Assembly (NCBI GenBank): GCA_016209985.1
Contig: JACQVB010000084.1
Span: 1-60,608, forward strand
Length of the DNA: 60,608 nucleotides
From: Gemmatimonadota bacterium
Lineage (GTDB): Bacteria; Gemmatimonadota; Gemmatimonadetes; Gemmatimonadales; GWC2-71-9
Reading direction: 5' to 3'
Shown here: piece by piece, positions 26,813 through 60,608 of the stretch
How positions within the stretch are numbered: position 1 is the stretch's first letter
How the letters are laid out: each line of letters begins with the position of its first letter
Notes under the pieces: generated by a model
The model's input: the letters and a program-made list of their open reading frames with translations, nothing else
The model's database searches: none
Told to the model about the DNA's origin: nothing
Made by a program: the position numbers and the translations under genes

Positions 26813-27445
26813 ATGGAGGGTTCATTGCAGCGTCCAGGGAAGATTATTTGTGTTGGGCGGAACTATGCGGCGCACGCCAAGGAGCTCGGCAACGTCGTCC
26901 CCGACAAACCGCTGCTCTTCTTCAAACCCCCCTCATCCATCATCGACAACGGCGAAACCATCATCCTCCCGCCGCCCTCACTTACGAAGCAGGTCGAGCA
27001 CGAGGCGGAGGTCGGGGTGGTGATCGGCGCCAGGCTTCGCAACGTGGACGGAAAAGCCGCGCGCAACGGGATCGCGGGCATTACCTGCGTCAACGACGTC
27101 ACGGCGCGCGATCTCCAGAAGACCGACGGTCATTGGGTTCGGGCCAAGGGCTTCGATACCTTCTGCCCCTGGGGGCCGAAGATCGTCCCGTTTCCGAGTG
27201 ACGATCAGCTTGCGAAGACCGAAGTAACTTGCCGAGTGAACGGCTCGCTACGCCAGCACGGCCACGTGGCCGACATGGTGTTCAGCATTCCGTTCCTCGT
27301 CTCCTACGTCTCCCAGGTCATGACGCTCGAGCCCGGGGACCTGATCGCGACTGGGACACCCGAGGGCGTAGGTCCGCTCAAGTCGGGTGACGTGGTCGAA
27401 GTGGAAGTGACGGGGGTGGGAGTGCTGCGGAATCCGGTGAGATAA
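26813..27445 (+). CDS. Fumarylacetoacetate hydrolase (FAH) family protein
   Basis: The 210-residue protein has the FAH-fold motif KIICVGRNYAAHAKELGN at the N-terminus and the metal ligands in EHEAEVGVVIG. It also has the catalytic segment VNDVTARDLQ and the substrate-pocket end LEPGDLIATGTPEGVG. Family members hydrolyse or decarboxylate beta-diketo or 2-hydroxy-diene acids. ATG 26813 is preferred over 26780 because the upstream ATG lies in the repeat element. It converges on the aminotransferase gene, with a shared hairpin between them. Confidence 0.9.
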   Translation: MEGSLQRPGKIICVGRNYAAHAKELGNVVPDKPLLFFKPPSSIIDNGETIILPPPSLTKQVEHEAEVGVVIGARLRNVDGKAARNGIAGITCVNDVTARDLQKTDGHWVRAKGFDTFCPWGPKIVPFPSDDQLAKTEVTCRVNGSLRQHGHVADMVFSIPFLVSYVSQVMTLEPGDLIATGTPEGVGPLKSGDVVEVEVTGVGVLRNPVR

Positions 27446-27506
27446 GGCGGTAAAGGACGGTAGAAGGCGGTATGTCTTGCCGCCCTCTACCGCCTGCTAC
27501 CGCCTT
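27444..27506. terminator. Bidirectional terminator hairpin built of GGCGGTA repeats
   Basis: Two 29-base arms (27444-27472 and 27478-27506) are complementary with few mismatches and are joined by a 5-base loop (tgtct). Each arm consists of short iterated units of the type AAGGCGGTA. It occupies the whole gap between the convergent FAH and aminotransferase genes, including both stop codons, so it can terminate either. A run of TTT follows on one strand. Confidence 0.65.
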
Positions 27507-28825: not shown

Positions 28826-29058
28826 GGCAGTCTCCTAGTGAACAATGAGGAGCCGTGTGAGAAGAGTGGCGGCGAGCGTTGAGCCGAGTGCGCGAGTGGA
28901 GATGGGCGAGACGCGAGCCTCACGGCCGGCACATCTGCGTCGCGCCGTTTGGGTTGCTCGATTGACGGTGCCGGTCGAGGGCTCGCGTCGAGAACATCCG
29001 GAACTCGCGTACTCGGCTCCACGCTCGCTATCACTCCTCCAATTACGACGTAACCTTC
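28758..29058 (-). repeat. Direct repeat copy R1: aminotransferase signal sequence plus spacer
   Basis: This segment is a diverged direct repeat of 30440-30716. It contains the 5' end of the aminotransferase gene (signal peptide), its CTAGGAGAC Shine-Dalgarno, and a spacer carrying the long hairpin 28864-29036. A 16-base stretch (acgacgtaaccttctt) at its edge is itself tandemly duplicated, adding a second copy of the last four propeller codons after the stop. Confidence 0.8.
28864..29036 (-). ncRNA. Long imperfect hairpin element, copy 1
   Basis: The arms 28872-28897 and 29003-29028 pair over 26 bases with one wobble and one mismatch. Outer GAGTG/CACTC and inner GACGCGAGCC/GGCTCGCGTC and CCGGCAC/GTGCCGG extend the stem to a single rod of about 170 bases. 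The element lies in the spacer between the propeller gene and the aminotransferase gene. Its outer stem sequence differs from copy 2 yet remains paired, which supports selection or correction for structure. Confidence 0.55.
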
Positions 29059-30501
29059 TTACGACGTAACCTTCTTCTTCAACCCGTCCGGCCCATGGTC
29101 CCAATCCTGGACCGACGAAATATTCGGCAGTCCCCATTGATGCCCGTTCCACCCGTCAAAGCCTTCCATCTTGAACGCCCAGAACCCGGTGATGAAATCG
29201 CTGGCCACGATGAGGCCGTCCGCGTTCCGGATCTGTGGGCTCCATACCCCGAAGGTGCCGCCGCCGGTGAGCGTGCCGTCGGGCCCGTCGTGCGTATCGT
29301 AGTAGGCGACGGTATAGGGGTTGGTCGGGTCCATCATGTTGAAGACGTAGAGTCCGTCATCGTAGGCGCCGACGAACACGTAGGGCCAGCGCACTTCCAT
29401 GTTGTGCGAGAAGTTCTTCCAGTTCGCGGTCCAGGCGCCGATCGGCCGCGAAATGGTCTTCACCGTGCCATCGAGCGCCGGCTTGAGATCGAAGATGCGC
29501 AGCGGGGAGAGTCGGTACTCGACCTCGGTCACGGCGTAGCGCCCCGTGGGATCCGGGGTGAAGGTATGCCCGTTGCCCACCCCCGAGATCCCCGTCATGG
29601 AGGCGAGCAGCTTGGGATTCTGGAGGTCGGTCACGTCGTACACGTAGTAGCCGTTGGTACCGGCACCGTAGAACCGGTCCGTTTGGGTTGCCGGATCGAA
29701 CCCCACGTACATGTCGTGGTACGCCCGAGGCCGCACGCCCGCCGCTTCCGCCGGAACGGGGATCCTGGCAATCAGGCCCTCCCGGCCGCCGGTGGCGACC
29801 ACCCGGTCGATGTCGTACACACCGGCAAACGGTCCCTGAACGGTGGCGAACATCAGGGCCAGCCCAGTGGAATGCTTGTAGGTGTAGTTCTCGTGTGACC
29901 CGCCGGGATATTGCGGCTCGCGAATCCGCGCCACCTCACGGACCTTCGACGTGTCGGGAAGACCGGTCACATCGAACACGATGGCATTGATGTCCACATC
30001 GGGACCGCCTTCCGCGAACTGAAAACTCTGCAGGAAGTAGTACCGACCCTTGCTCTTGGCGTACATCGGTCCCAGCGCCTGCGAGCCGCGATGTAATTCG
30101 GGATTCTCCATCACCCAGTCATAGATAATCTTCGGCTTGGCGGGGTCTTTGATGTTGATGATCCAGAAGCCGGTCGGGGAGAATCGGTGACAGACGTACA
30201 CGTAAGGGCGGGACAGCTCCTGCTCCATCGTGATGTCGGCGGTGCGCGAACCCAGCATCGCGATGGCGTCGTTGCTCGATGCGGGCCGGAGCGCGGCGTT
30301 GGGGTTGGCGGTTCGCGATCCCGAGAGTTGCGGCGCCGCACCGCCCAGGGGCAGGTGCGCCACGACGGTCATGTTCCGGCTTCCCTGCTGGCCCGGAGGG
30401 AACTGGGCCATGGCATTCGTCGTCGCGAGCGCCAGCGAGGCCACTGCCACCCCGCCCGCCAACCGTGCGAGAGAGTCTCTCCGTGCCAGTTTAGTGCTCA
30501 T
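29059..30501 (-). CDS. LVIVD-type beta-propeller protein, paralog 1 (chimeric signal peptide)
   Basis: The 480-residue secreted protein is about 75% similar to paralog 2 over its mature part. Repeated propeller blades carry VYDVTDLQNPKLLASMTG and IFDLKPALDG segments typical of LVIVD repeats. Conserved His/Asp motifs are YHDMYVGFD, SHNMEVRWPYVFVGAYDD and GFDGWNGHQWG. Residues 1-28 do not resemble other propellers; they match residues 1-28 of the downstream aminotransferase (23 of 28 identical), with the Tat-motif F changed to S (RRDSLARL). The Shine-Dalgarno AGGAG precedes the ATG. Function is unknown; the fold resembles selenium-binding protein/methanethiol oxidase propellers. Confidence 0.85.
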   Translation of the reverse strand: MSTKLARRDSLARLAGGVAVASLALATTNAMAQFPPGQQGSRNMTVVAHLPLGGAAPQLSGSRTANPNAALRPASSNDAIAMLGSRTADITMEQELSRPYVYVCHRFSPTGFWIINIKDPAKPKIIYDWVMENPELHRGSQALGPMYAKSKGRYYFLQSFQFAEGGPDVDINAIVFDVTGLPDTSKVREVARIREPQYPGGSHENYTYKHSTGLALMFATVQGPFAGVYDIDRVVATGGREGLIARIPVPAEAAGVRPRAYHDMYVGFDPATQTDRFYGAGTNGYYVYDVTDLQNPKLLASMTGISGVGNGHTFTPDPTGRYAVTEVEYRLSPLRIFDLKPALDGTVKTISRPIGAWTANWKNFSHNMEVRWPYVFVGAYDDGLYVFNMMDPTNPYTVAYYDTHDGPDGTLTGGGTFGVWSPQIRNADGLIVASDFITGFWAFKMEGFDGWNGHQWGLPNISSVQDWDHGPDGLKKKVTS

Positions 30502-30716
30502 GGCGGTCTCCTAGTGGAACCGGGGCGCATGGGAGCGCGACGGCGAATCGTACAGCCGAGTGCGCGAGTGGAGGATGGGCGAGACGCGAGCCTCACGGCC
30601 GGCACATCTGCGTCGAGCTGTTGCATCGCTCGATCGACCGTGCCGGTCGAGTGGCTCGCGTCGAGAACATCCGGAACTCGCGTACCCGGCTGTACGATTC
30701 GCCGTCATCGTTCTAA
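30440..30716 (-). repeat. Direct repeat copy R2: signal sequence plus spacer
   Basis: This segment is the second diverged copy of 28758-29058. It includes the 5' end (signal-peptide codons) of propeller paralog 1, the CTAGGAGACC Shine-Dalgarno, and the spacer hairpin 30539-30706. Near-identical blocks include GCGAGACGCGAGCCTCACGG and TCGAGAACATCCGGAACTCG. The repeats flank paralog 1, as expected for a tandem duplication. Confidence 0.8.
30539..30706 (-). ncRNA. Long imperfect hairpin element, copy 2
   Basis: Two 31-base arms (30539-30569 and 30676-30706) pair with one mismatch and one wobble. The inner stem GACGCGAGCC/GGCTCGCGTC and CCGGCAC/GTGCCGG is shared with copy 1. In the outer stem copy 1 has TTGAGCC/GGCTCCA where copy 2 has TACAGCC/GGCTGTA, so changes on one arm are matched on the other. 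It lies between propeller paralogs 2 and 1 on their transcript. Confidence 0.55.
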
Positions 30717-32126
30717 TTACGACGTAACCTTCTTCTTCAACCCATCCGGCCCGTTATCCCAATCCTGGGCCGACGAAATGTTCGGCAGCCCCCATTGATG
30801 CCCGTTCCAGCCGTCGAACCCTTCCATCTTGAAGGCCCAGAATCCGGTGACGAAATCGCTGGCGACGATGAGACCGTCAGCGTTCCGGATCTGGGGGCTC
30901 CATACCCCGAAGGCCTTCTCCTGCGTCGGCTTGCCGTCCGGCCCGTCATGCGTGTCGTAATAGCCGACGGTGTAGGGGTTGGTCGGGTCCATCATGTTGA
31001 AGACGTGCATGCCGTCGTCATAGGCGCCGACGAACACGTAGGGCCAACGCACTTCCATGTTGTGCGAGTAGTTCTTCCAGTTGGCGGTCCACGCGCCCAC
31101 CGGCCGTGAGATCGTCTTGACCGTGCCGTCCAATCCCGGCTTGAGGTCGAAGACTCGCAGCGGCGAGAACCGGTATTCCACTTCGGTCACCGCATAGCGT
31201 CCGGTCGGATCGACCACGAACGTGTGGCCATACTGCACTCCGGAGATGCCGGTGATCGAGGTGAGCAACTTGGGGTTCTTGACGTCGGTGACGTCGTAGA
31301 CGTAGTAGCCGCCCGCGCCCGCGCCGTAGAAACGGTCGGTCTGGGACACGGGATCGAACCCGACGTACATGTCGTGGTAGCCGCGCAGCGCGGTGGCACC
31401 TGCGGGATTGGCTTCGGTCGGGAGCGGGACGTCGCCCACCAGGCCCGACTTTCCACCCGACGCCACGACCTGATCTACATCATAGATGTGCGAGATGGGA
31501 GCGCCGGTCACGGCGGTGAACATCAGCGCCGCACCGCTTGAATGCTTGTAGGTGTAGTTCTCGTGGTACCCGCCGGGGTGGCCGGGATCCATGATGCGGG
31601 CGACCTCCTTGACCTTCGAGGTGTCGGGCAGCCCGGTCACGTCGAAGACGATGGCGCCCAGGTCCACGTGTGGTCCGCCCGCCTGGAACTGGAAGGTCTG
31701 CAGGAAGTAGTAGCGGCCTTTGCTCTTCACGTACATCGGGCCCAACGCGCCGGAGCCCCTTCCCAGCTCGGCCTGCTCGATTTTCCAGTCGTAGATGATC
31801 TTGGGCTTGCCGGGCTCCTTGATGCTGATGATCCAGAAGCCGGTCGGCGCAAACCGATGACAGATGTAGACATAGGGACGGGACAGCTCCTGCTCCATCG
31901 TGATGTCGGCCGTGCGGGTGCCGAGCATGTCGACCGCCTCGTTGGTCACCATCCGGCCGGCCGCCAGGTTCGTGGACCCGGTCATGAGCGGCTCGGCGCC
32001 GCCAAGCGGCATGTGCGCCACGATCGAGATGTTGCGGCTGCCCTGCTGGCCGGGGGAATACTGCGCGACTGCGGCCGAAGCCGTGAGCGTCGCGGCCACA
32101 CTGAGTGCCACGATTCTGGTTCTCAT
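30717..32126 (-). CDS. LVIVD-type beta-propeller protein, paralog 2
   Basis: The 469-residue protein has an ordinary Sec signal (RIVALSVAATLTASAAVAQ). The mature part has blades with YVYDVTDVKNPKLLTSITG, the conserved EQELSRPYVYICHRF, HENYTYKHSSG, YHDMYVGFD and SHNMEVRWPYVF, and the C-terminal WNGHQWGLPNISS. ATG 32126 follows a GGAGG Shine-Dalgarno, so the longer frame upstream is not used. It is probably the ancestral copy, since its signal peptide is its own. It is divergent from the membrane iron-sulfur protein gene, with 158 bases between starts. Confidence 0.88.
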   Translation of the reverse strand: MRTRIVALSVAATLTASAAVAQYSPGQQGSRNISIVAHMPLGGAEPLMTGSTNLAAGRMVTNEAVDMLGTRTADITMEQELSRPYVYICHRFAPTGFWIISIKEPGKPKIIYDWKIEQAELGRGSGALGPMYVKSKGRYYFLQTFQFQAGGPHVDLGAIVFDVTGLPDTSKVKEVARIMDPGHPGGYHENYTYKHSSGAALMFTAVTGAPISHIYDVDQVVASGGKSGLVGDVPLPTEANPAGATALRGYHDMYVGFDPVSQTDRFYGAGAGGYYVYDVTDVKNPKLLTSITGISGVQYGHTFVVDPTGRYAVTEVEYRFSPLRVFDLKPGLDGTVKTISRPVGAWTANWKNYSHNMEVRWPYVFVGAYDDGMHVFNMMDPTNPYTVGYYDTHDGPDGKPTQEKAFGVWSPQIRNADGLIVASDFVTGFWAFKMEGFDGWNGHQWGLPNISSAQDWDNGPDGLKKKVTS

Positions 32127-32284: not shown

Positions 32285-34363
32285 ATGACCGTCGATCCCG
32301 TGACCCGCGAGATATTCTGGAACGTCTCTCCCGCCGGAGAGCTCGTATTCTATTTCCTGGGCGCGCTCTCTCTGGGATGCTTTGGCTACGGGATGTACCG
32401 GCACCTGAAGCGGATCCTGAGCGGAAAGCCGACACCTCTGTCCTGGCCAACGATCCGGGCCGCGCTGGCGAAGAGAGTCGTCACGATCCTGCTGAATGTC
32501 AGCGTCGTTCGCCGGCATCGATTCGCCGGGGTCATGCATCTGGCCATCATGTGGGGATTCGCGGCGCTGTTCGTCGGCACCGTCCTCGTCGCCATCGAAT
32601 ACGACGTCTTTCAGAAGATCCTCGGCAGAACGCAGGGCTTCTTCGCCGGCTCCTTCTTTCTGGGATACGAACTCGCGCTCGACACCCTGGGCGCGTTGTT
32701 TTGCGCCGGCCTCCTGGCGGCACTGGTGCGCCGCTATGTCCTTAAGCGCCCGCCGCTCACCCGGGAACCCGCGGACCTGCTCCTCTCGGGATGGCTGTTG
32801 CTAATCGGGCTTACCGGGTTTCTGGTGGAAGGCATGCGCCTGGCGGGGACCTCCCATCCGCTTCCATACTCGCCCCGCTGGTCACCGGTGGGCCTCGCCA
32901 TCTCCGGCCTGTGGGCACACGTCGGCGCCGGGACCGTTCAGGCCTGGCATCTGTACGGCTGGTGGTTTCACGCCGTCCTGGCGCTCGGCTGGATTGCCGC
33001 GCTCCCCCGCGCGCCCAAAGTTCTGCACCTCCTGACCGCGGGAGTGAACGTGCTGCTGCGGGATCTTCGTCCCCGGGGGCGTCTCGCTCCCATCGACATC
33101 GAGGCCGCCTTCGAGAGTGGTCTGCCGGTGGGCGTGAGCACGATCGCGGACCTCACCCGGAAAGACCTGCTCGACCTGGCCAGCTGCACCGAGTGCGGGC
33201 GATGCGAGACGGCCTGCCCCGCGCACAGCTCCGGAAAAGCCTTGTCCCCCCGCGCCATCGTGCTCAAACTCCGCGATCAGGCCGGCCGCGAAATGCCGCT
33301 GTTCGGCAGAGGCGAGCCGCGCGGGCGCATCATGGATTCCACGATCGGGCCGGAGGAGATCTGGGCCTGCACCACATGCCTGGCGTGCGTCGAAGCGTGT
33401 CCCGTGGGCATCGATCCGCTTGCCAAGATCCTGGAGCTCCGCCGCAACGAGGTCATGAGCGACGACCGCTATCCGGAAACCTTCGGGGACGTTTTCACCG
33501 GTCTCAAGAAGCGCGGGAATCCCTGGAACCAGCATCCCTCGAGCCGCCTCGATTGGGCCCGGGGCCTGTCGGTCCGAACGATGGCGGAGGTGAAAGCAGC
33601 CGGCGAAACCGTGGAGTACCTCCTCTGGGTCGGATGCTCGGCGGCCTTCGAGCCGCGCAACCAGCGAATCGCCCGCAGCCTGGTCCGCATCCTTGAGAAA
33701 GCCCAGGTCTCCTTCGCGGTGCTGGGCGAAGAGGAGAGCTGCACCGGGGACCCTGCGCGCCGGATGGGAAACGAATTCCTCTTCCAGATCCAGGCGCAAC
33801 GGAACGTCGAAACCTTCAAGCCGTATGCGTTCCGCCGGATCCTCACGCTCTGCCCGCACTGCTTCCATTGCCTCGGCACGGAGTACCCCGACTTCGGCGG
33901 GAGTTACACGGTGGTTCACCACACGCAGTTGATTCGCGAACTGCTGCGGGACGGGAAGCTGAAGTTGTCGACCGCGCTGCGAGGGACCGTTGCCTACCAC
34001 GACTCCTGCTACCTGGGCCGTCATCATGGCGAGTTCGACGCCCCGCGTGAGGTCCTCCGGAACATTCCCGGTCTGGAGATCGTGGAGATGACGCAGAGCC
34101 GCGAGACCGGAATGTGTTGCGGAGCCGGCGGCGGATTGATGTGGATCGAGGAGGAACCTGGCCGGCGCGTGAATGAAAGACGAGTCGATCAGCTACAGGC
34201 GGCGCTTGGCACCGGTCAGGTGGCGGGACAACCCGGTGTGCTGGCTACCGCCTGTCCCTTCTGCATGACGATGATGGAAGACGGGCTCGCGTCGCGCCAG
34301 GCGCCGGTTCAGGATAAGGACATCGCAGAGCTGGTGGCCGAGGCCGCGGGCTTGAGCGTCTGA
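32285..34363 (+). CDS. Membrane CCG-domain iron-sulfur oxidoreductase (EMO/HdrD-like)
   Basis: The 692-residue protein has a NarI-like membrane domain of about five helices at the N-terminus. Two 4Fe-4S motifs follow (CTECGRCETACPAH and CTTCLACVEACPVG), then two CCG domains (CPHCFHCLG and CCGAGGG plus a C-terminal ACPFC). This is the layout of DUF224 membrane oxidoreductases such as ETF:menaquinone oxidoreductase (EMO), which pass electrons between ETF or disulfides and quinone. ATG 32285 is preferred since homology starts there. EtfAB in this window (51-53 kb) is a plausible partner. It is divergent from propeller paralog 2 and upstream of paralog 3. Confidence 0.88.
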   Translation: MTVDPVTREIFWNVSPAGELVFYFLGALSLGCFGYGMYRHLKRILSGKPTPLSWPTIRAALAKRVVTILLNVSVVRRHRFAGVMHLAIMWGFAALFVGTVLVAIEYDVFQKILGRTQGFFAGSFFLGYELALDTLGALFCAGLLAALVRRYVLKRPPLTREPADLLLSGWLLLIGLTGFLVEGMRLAGTSHPLPYSPRWSPVGLAISGLWAHVGAGTVQAWHLYGWWFHAVLALGWIAALPRAPKVLHLLTAGVNVLLRDLRPRGRLAPIDIEAAFESGLPVGVSTIADLTRKDLLDLASCTECGRCETACPAHSSGKALSPRAIVLKLRDQAGREMPLFGRGEPRGRIMDSTIGPEEIWACTTCLACVEACPVGIDPLAKILELRRNEVMSDDRYPETFGDVFTGLKKRGNPWNQHPSSRLDWARGLSVRTMAEVKAAGETVEYLLWVGCSAAFEPRNQRIARSLVRILEKAQVSFAVLGEEESCTGDPARRMGNEFLFQIQAQRNVETFKPYAFRRILTLCPHCFHCLGTEYPDFGGSYTVVHHTQLIRELLRDGKLKLSTALRGTVAYHDSCYLGRHHGEFDAPREVLRNIPGLEIVEMTQSRETGMCCGAGGGLMWIEEEPGRRVNERRVDQLQAALGTGQVAGQPGVLATACPFCMTMMEDGLASRQAPVQDKDIAELVAEAAGLSV

Positions 34364-34397
34364 CCCTTCAGTCTCGCTCGTTCGAGAGGAGTTCCCG

Positions 34398-35835
34398 ATG
34401 AGCATCACCCCCCCGTTCGTGCGGCGCATACCGTTGCTGGCCGCGGTCCTACTTCCCGCTGCCATAGCCACGCCGATGCTTCAGGCGCAGCGCGCTCCCG
34501 GGGAACAGGCCAGCGCCAATCTTCACGTGCTCTCGCACATCCCGGTGGCCCGGGGACTGACCACGGGCTATCAGGACATCCTCGACATCGACGTCGAGCA
34601 GGAGCTCATGCGACCCTACGTCTACATCGCCCATTACGTCGACTACGACGGTTTCGACATCATCAGCATCAAGGACCCCCGGCGGGCACAGATCATCTAC
34701 CAGTGGCAGATCGAAAACATGGATCTGCGGCGAGGTGGCGGGGCCTCCGGGCTCTACAACCCCCGGGTGTTCAAGCTGAAGGGCCGGTACTATTGTGGCC
34801 GTGTGCGCTCAATTCGGGGCCGGTAAGCCCGACTCGGATCTCGGCGCCATCATCTTCGATGTCACCGGGCTACCCGACACGTCCACGGTGAGAGAGGTCG
34901 GCCGGATCCGGGCCCTGGACACGCCGGGCGGGTTCCACAATCTCTTCACCTACAAGCACTCCGATGGACGAGTCATGCTGTTCACCACCACCACCAGCCC
35001 GCGCGCCAACATTTACGACCTGGAGAAGTTCCTCGGCGGCGATCCGAAGCAGGGGTTCATCGGGCAAATCCCGCGGCCTGAAGTGGCCGGATATGGAAAC
35101 ACGCGGTCCGGGTACCACGACATGTACGTGGCGTACGATCCAGCCAACAAGCGCGATGTCTTCTACGGCGCCGGCCTTGGGGCCGGCTACTTCGTGTACG
35201 ACGTCACCCGCCCGGAGGCGCCCAAGCTGCTGACCTCGCTGACCGGTGTGGCGGGAATGGCATCGGGCCACGCCTTTCAGGCGACGCCCGACGGCCGGTA
35301 CGCGGTCGCCCAGATGGAGTATCAGTACGCCCCGATCCGCATCTTCGATTTGAAGCCCGGGTTGGATGGAGCCGTGAAGACCATCTCGCGGCCGATCGGC
35401 GCGTGGGCAGCCAAGCCCGACGGCTGGAAGAACGCATCGCACAACCACCAGATCCGGTGGCCCTATGTCTTCGTCGCCTCGTTCGACGACGGGCTCCAGG
35501 TGCTCAACATCATGGATCCGACCAACCCCTACACCGTGGGCGACTGGGACACCAATGACGGTCCCGATCTGCAGGGCATCAACCTGTCGACCGGCGAGCG
35601 CGCGGAACCCATGGGACCGGGCAACATTTACAACGGAGCCTGGGGAGTTCAGGTGCGGAACGCGGACGGGCTGATCCTCATCGCCGACTTCAAGACCGGG
35701 TTCTGGGCGTTCAAGATGGACGGTTTCGATGGCTGGAACGGACACCAGTGGGGCGTGCCTAACATCTCCAGTGCCCAGGACTGGGACAACGGGCCGGATG
35801 GTGCACCCCAACCGGCGAAGGTGAGCGTGCGATGA
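34398..35835 (+). pseudogene. LVIVD-type beta-propeller protein, paralog 3 (frameshifted)
   Basis: Two overlapping frames together encode one propeller. The first (34398-34826) carries a signal peptide and reads up to LKGRYYC, then runs out of homology. The second (from GTG 34795 to 35835) resumes at AVCAQFGAG. A single extra T at about 34793-34794 (tactaTTgtggcc) explains the break; removing it gives a continuous GRYYVAVCAQ. The remainder is well conserved (YHDMYVAYD, IRWPYVFVASFDDGLQ, WNGHQWGVPNISS). This is either a true frameshift mutation or a sequencing error. It is coupled to the TauE/SafE gene by an ATGA overlap. Confidence 0.8.
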
Positions 35836-60365: not shown

Positions 60366-60368
60366 AGA

Positions 60369-60474
60369 CAGTAAGAAGTGAGAAGTAAGAAGTGAGAAGG
60401 TCGCTAACAAGAAACCGGGGTCCCCAACAGGGGCCCCGGTTTTGTTCTGACTTCTGACTTCTGACTTCTCACTG
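60369..60474. repeat. Inverted arms of iterated GAAGTGA heptamers
   Basis: The left arm (60369-60399) is a run of GAAGTAA/GAAGTGA units and the right arm (60451-60474) a run of CTTCTGA units that is its approximate complement. They enclose a GC-rich terminator hairpin. The arrangement resembles the terminator at 27444-27506, which is also built of short iterated units. Confidence 0.6.
60412..60446. terminator. Intrinsic terminator after SusD
   Basis: AAACCGGGG(T)CCCC, a short AACA loop and GGGGCCCCGGTTT form a strong stem, followed on the plus strand by TTTTGTT. It lies between convergent SusD and the propeller paralog 4 and can act on both strands. Confidence 0.8.
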
Positions 60475-60478
60475 TCGT

Positions 60479-60608
60479 TCAGCTGACTTTACCCGCCTTG
60501 GGCGCCCCATCCGGTCCGTTATCCCAGTCTTGTGCCGATGAGATGTTGGGCATTCCCCATTGGTGCCCGTTCCAGCCGTCGAATCCGTCCATCTTGAACG
60601 CCCAGAAC
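60479..60608 (-). CDS. LVIVD-type beta-propeller protein, paralog 4 (C-terminal end only)
   Basis: The minus strand encodes the last 42 residues of a protein ending at the TGA 60481-60479. The visible part is FKMDGFDGWNGHQWGMPNIS followed by SAQDWDNGPDGAPKAGKVS. It matches the C-termini of paralogs 1-3, most closely paralog 3 (GAPQPAKVS). The 5' part lies outside the window, so length and signal peptide are unknown. Confidence 0.85.
   Translation of the reverse strand, partial: FWAFKMDGFDGWNGHQWGMPNISSAQDWDNGPDGAPKAGKVS

Follow-up and report, generated by a model that had tools for sequence, protein, structure and literature searches.

Two long gene-end hairpins copied by one tandem duplication in a Gemmatimonadota genome: likely terminators or mRNA 3'-end barriers with jointly altered arms

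The stretch of DNA analyzed here (the window) comprises 60,608 nucleotides of contig JACQVB010000084.1, part of a Gemmatimonadota genome of 4.64 Mb in 289 contigs. Genes and two long hairpins, referred to here as rods, alternate on its minus strand: a gene for a putative secreted protein (30717..32102, exact start uncertain) ends at 30717 and is followed by rod 2 (30539..30706), a second paralog (30501 to 29059), rod 1 (28861..29039) and a class V aminotransferase-like gene (28825 to 27506). The paralog at 29059..30501 encodes a product of 480 aa with weak choice-of-anchor B/LVIVD-like similarity; it is chimeric at the duplication junction described below and 77% identical to its neighbor over the body. 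LVIVD-repeat was rejected as a name for the paralogs because the score lies under the Pfam cut-off, and it is retained as a likeness only. The aminotransferase-like gene has its leader in common with the paralog that starts at 30501, and a weaker palindrome (AAGGCGGTAAAGGACGG...) lies at its 3' end (27444..27506).

Each rod occupies the space between the stop codon of one gene and the start of the next. Rod 1 (179 nt) begins about 20 nt past the stop at 29059, and rod 2 (168 nt, its 20-bp outer stem perfectly paired) about 11 nt past the stop at 30717. Both are long imperfect palindromes, with self-complementary arm scores of 53 and 74 for rods 1 and 2 and aligned arms of roughly 67-72 nt. Their predicted RNA folds reach -109.3 kcal/mol for rod 1 and -122 kcal/mol for rod 2 (z-scores -8.5 and -11.7), and shuffled sequences never do as well. 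Palindrome search, fold z-scores and shuffles thus confirm the two rods that a preliminary description, made from the letters alone, had placed here. Its remark that they match no recognized RNA family also stands: an Rfam 15 scan of the whole window gave no family above the gathering score, and a tRNA/tmRNA scan found none. The exact core of the inner arm was absent from viral contigs. Like a canonical Rho-independent terminator, both rods present a stable hairpin soon after a stop codon; the T-run that such a terminator carries directly 3' of the hairpin is absent from the sense strand of both.

The rods are repeated together with their surroundings. Paralog 3' ends, rods and downstream leaders recur at one spacing of ~1.66-1.68 kb: the 3' ends are 91% identical over 197 nt and 83% over 300 nt, and the leader, including its ribosome-binding region, is 87% identical over 95 nt. 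The gene at 30501 starts with 30 residues resembling the leader of the aminotransferase-like gene (MSTELARRDFLARLAGGVAAASLAPA versus MSTKLARRDSLARLAGGVAVASLALA), and its body resembles the adjacent paralog. The shared spacing and the chimeric leader show that a single tandem duplication took in the gene end, the rod and the leader downstream of it, making the chimeric gene in the process. The two rods therefore amount to a single comparison, not to two independent instances or to replicated covariation.

That comparison reveals regions of very unequal conservation. On the sense strand, the inner 5' arm of rod 1 (28968..29012) is the same as that of rod 2 at 45/45 sites and the inner 3' arm (28882..28934) at all 53 aligned sites, so that the inner stem sequence is common to both rods, as first described, at 98/98 aligned sites (20/20 of the unpaired ones included), two single-base indels apart. 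The remainder of the rod agrees at 45/68 sites, and all the differences lie in the tip (28935..28967; 25/32 sites the same, one gap) and the outer stem, whose 5' arm (29013..29039) and 3' arm (28861..28881) have diverged to 12/21 and 8/15 identical sites, each with a 6-nt gap. Among fourfold codon sites next door, drawn from the final 60 paralog codons plus the shared leader, 16/42 differ (38%). Fisher values for the inner-outer contrast (~1e-10) are optimistic, since the region borders were set after viewing the alignment. When the copies are compared by structure, 58 Watson-Crick and 2 G-U pairs of the alignable stem are unchanged, a single pair has cleanly changed on both sides (G-C to C-G), and a mismatch gives way to A-T, again with both sides changed. 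The outermost stem is not alignable base by base; it has undergone block replacement, and its two arms have corresponding 6-nt gaps. In either rod the outer 5' and 3' arms are near-identical, and both are unlike those of the other rod. The earlier statement that the outer arms differ together so that pairing is kept is overstated: the pair quoted for copy 1, TTGAGCC/GGCTCCA, contains a T/C mismatch.

How could both arms have changed together? Two answers were first offered, a structured RNA and a DNA hairpin undergoing correction against itself; the second appears to fit better: differences cluster at the stem ends, outer arms match within each rod, and the inner stem has no compensations, which together with its unchanged unpaired bases speaks against the RNA. 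Template switching alters several bases on both arms so that pairing is kept or made perfect (PMC8794818), a signature that it has in common with quasipalindrome correction and that the rods display, their changes being clustered and their arms agreeing within a copy over between copies. Unlike the published cases (PMC8794818), the rods offer one pair of copies and no ancestor from which to read the direction or number of events. Arm-to-arm copying by template switching, combined with recent homogenization, would fit these differences better than scattered compensatory change. For the inner part, the preferred reading is that the copies were recently homogenized and that their ends were later changed in block events. 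Strong selection on the inner sequence itself remains as the alternative, and the zero changes in 98 inner-arm sites could reflect such sequence-specific selection instead of homogenization; homogenization is preferred because selection must also hold every unpaired base, in an element that has no homologue in the same-genus genome. Selection for pairing could also explain why outer arms agree within a rod. Paired arm changes are often taken as proof of a functional RNA. The rod pair is a compact case that fits arm-to-arm copying after duplication, and its paired differences do little to establish a separate new RNA.

Position and architecture place the two rods in a genome-wide set of long hairpins that stand right after stop codons. 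The census of this set covers fetched genome samples, in which two heptad pattern families were searched. When 457 kb of this genome were shuffled in local blocks, 0 palindromes of comparable score arose, versus 32 observed. Control regions totaling 396 kb, which were not picked for rods and whose gene calls come from a simple script instead of an annotation program, contain 29 rods, or 7.3 per 100 kb, against 2.2 per 100 kb in a same-genus genome; sampled relatives mostly have 0-3 rods each in ~10-40 kb per relative, with false hits from N-runs in two genomes. Such hairpins are thus scarcer in the same-genus species and in most relatives. Within the control regions, rods occupy 10/41 convergent gaps, 11/113 codirectional gaps and 2/50 divergent gaps (convergent versus divergent, Fisher p 0.005). 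The 44 rods examined in codirectional gaps, loci fetched for heptad patterns included, start a median of 5 nt past the upstream stop, and 38/44 are closer to that stop than to the next start. That the hairpins follow stops, are in excess between convergent genes and are rare between divergent ones suggests that they mark transcript ends. Across bacteria, inverted repeats occur in excess past the ends of genes, and their arms are better conserved than their spacers (PMC13155455); hairpins without poly-U near stop codons have been found at transcript ends (PMC8355165).

The members of this set share little sequence. Other paralogs of the secreted-protein family often carry a hairpin right after the stop, quite different in sequence, and the same is true of unrelated genes in the control regions; rods are commoner after paralog stops (10/46) than after other stops (36/380, p 0.02). 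What recurs is composition: G exceeds C in the 5' arm of 40/41 rods, a group not chosen for heptads that takes in paralog loci, and this holds on both strands since a palindrome reads alike from both. A larger group gives 89/96 G-first rods, though it is not independent and includes loci fetched for heptad patterns. Gene-directed strand polarity was considered as evidence of transcription and rejected, G-first being a property of the hairpin and not of gene direction. Arms have a period of 7 or 14 in 24/41 rods, and at least five T within the first 8 nt after the rod are found in 4/80. In some gene-end hairpins the tip holds a GC-rich core flanked by A/T, as in a two-way terminator. One such hairpin in the window (60367..60476) follows the paralog stop at 60479 and combines GAGAAGT-type heptad arms with a terminator-like GC-rich core. 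Integron attC sites, which are also hairpins after stops in gene arrays, were considered and set aside, no attC core motif being apparent by eye.

Many members of the set have arms built of heptads. A GAGAAGT-type pattern has 26 matches in this genome and 7 in its same-genus relative, and two other genera yield 8 and 1; of 200 genomes sampled across the phylum, two carry it, both of them already known. An AGGTGYC-type pattern has 99 matches here and 1-4 in four other genera. Pattern matches overlap and so exceed the number of hairpins; a reversed control pattern had 0 matches. Dozens of AGGTGYC heptad hairpins lie right after stops in this genome (for example L084 14102-14178, L089 10010-10086 and L086 19599-19676). 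The AGGTGYC pattern is absent from the same-genus genome, which indicates rapid turnover of heptad families from one species to the next. Unit by unit, the arms of heptad rods mirror each other no better than chance, so that arm copying is not supported as their general explanation and they stand apart from hairpins made by template switching; their arms would probably grow by slippage within each arm. Heptad short tandem repeats between genes are known in cyanobacteria as STRR. The TAACTGA repeats of Beggiatoaceae are 7-nt intergenic tandem units as well (PMC4679880). The heptad set resembles both in having 7-nt tandem units in intergenic DNA and differs in that two facing inverted arrays form a hairpin right after a stop. 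No account of gene-end hairpins with heptad arms, or of five of their repeat sequences, turned up in a body of mainly openly available papers, and the set may be undescribed so far. The two rods themselves have no heptads and have only position and architecture in common with the heptad set.

What, then, are the two rods? A structured non-coding RNA, or a structured mRNA element under selection for RNA pairing, would account for the very stable sense-strand fold, the clean double change and repaired mismatch of the outer stem, and inner arms that stayed constant while adjacent fourfold sites changed. It seems improbable all the same, because unpaired inner sites are conserved like paired ones and the inner stem has no compensatory change. 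Nor are wobble pairs favored: sense-strand mismatches in gene-end hairpins, young and old rods pooled, comprise 32 A/C and 29 G/U, no sign of selection for wobble at the RNA level. The preliminary description had looked to a covariance search for further covarying copies, and none came to light: model R1, built from both rods and run under stricter filters against 61 genomes (60 relatives, the same-genus genome included), found only the two rods. A structured RNA supported by covariation would bring several independent homologues with compensations throughout the stem; the lack of a homologue in any of the 60 relatives, like the lack of an Rfam match, counts against one here. Of the further copies that might occur elsewhere in the genome, one degenerate half-rod was found and no full copy. 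It corresponds to the rod's loop and 5' arm (82% over 62 nt, E 8e-10), has no outer 3' arm, and sits between the stop codon of a peptidase-like gene and a further paralog (G000:C217:12007-12067; L004 1501-1561). Could the rod be a mobile element, a small palindrome of MITE-, ERIC- or REPIN-like kind copied between sites? The diverged half-copy at a second locus and the near-identity of the inner part between diverged flanks would suit one. Such elements occur in many dispersed copies, however, and two full copies in 61 genomes, at homologous places in one duplication and so not two insertions, make this reading unlikely, the more so as the half-copy also adjoins a paralog and may have traveled with the secreted-protein family. 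The rods resemble REP/BIME, ERIC and other stem-loop families in being imperfect intergenic palindromes that are probably transcribed, and differ from these high-copy families of one sequence in that the rod is known from two full copies and a half-copy, and what unites the wider set is position and polarity, not a common sequence (PMC2267715, PMC3733652).

A further reading is a site that acts as DNA, REP/BIME-like in binding a protein or gyrase or in serving as a recombination hotspot that aids paralog expansion, or an mRNA 3'-end stabilizer that is no terminator. Near-absolute identity of the inner arms, unpaired bases included, would suit a bound sequence; the excess of rods after paralog stops and the lack of preference for wobble pairs point the same way. 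We doubt this reading, in that the other gene-end rods share position and arm polarity with these two and no sequence, so that one DNA-binding protein would hardly serve the entire set. The reading we favor, with a probability of about one half (0.52), is that the two rods, products of one duplication, are gene-end hairpins within the wider set, likely U-tract-less two-way terminators or mRNA 3'-end barriers whose arms were altered by template switching. Hairpins of the set would stop or slow RNA polymerase arriving from either side and form a folded mRNA 3' end; most members, having no U-tract, would act as non-canonical two-way terminators. In the rods, the outer stem and tip would have changed in blocks as one arm was copied onto the other during replication, and the inner stem would have been kept, or homogenized between the two copies. 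A transcribed role as gene-end hairpins is still likely, judging from position; putative termination is the best guess for function and mRNA 3'-end protection a close alternative. Against termination, the genes flanking each rod are codirectional and could be cotranscribed, in which case a full stop would be unwanted; Rho is encoded in the genome, so termination here does not depend on hairpins. Against the favored reading as a whole, rods with neither U-tract nor heptad arms may differ in origin from most of the set.

Like intrinsic terminators, especially those without a U-tract (PMC8355165), the hairpins of the set lie just past the stop, are most frequent between convergent genes and would often be usable both ways. 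Unlike them, the rods are far longer than usual at 168-179 nt, U-tracts are rare, and 7-nt tandem repeats make up the arms of many members of the set. A broader version of the favored reading is possible and decidedly more tentative: this genome may use an undescribed class of gene-end hairpins, with inverted 7-nt repeat arms and G-rich 5' arms on both strands, as its main means of two-way, U-tract-free termination, the two rods being old or drifted members renewed by template switching. The heptad-armed, near-invariantly G-first set would offer a testable model for the origin and turnover of long terminators in GC-rich genomes, where U-tracts are rare.

The secreted-protein family to which the paralogs belong, which has no Pfam match above cut-off, occupies ~42 places in this genome and 29 in the same-genus relative, often in tandem rows, and 0-4 places in the other relatives searched. 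Its members in the window lie at 29059-32102, 34356-35835 and 60479-60607. The second of these seems split into two overlapping frames (34356-34826 and 34780-35835), which match query residues 25-155 and 161-473, by a frameshift or an assembly error. At the end of contig G000:C101 (L045 9643-10162), a 520-bp palindrome holds paralog fragments in opposite orientation, either an assembly fold-back or a true inverted duplication.
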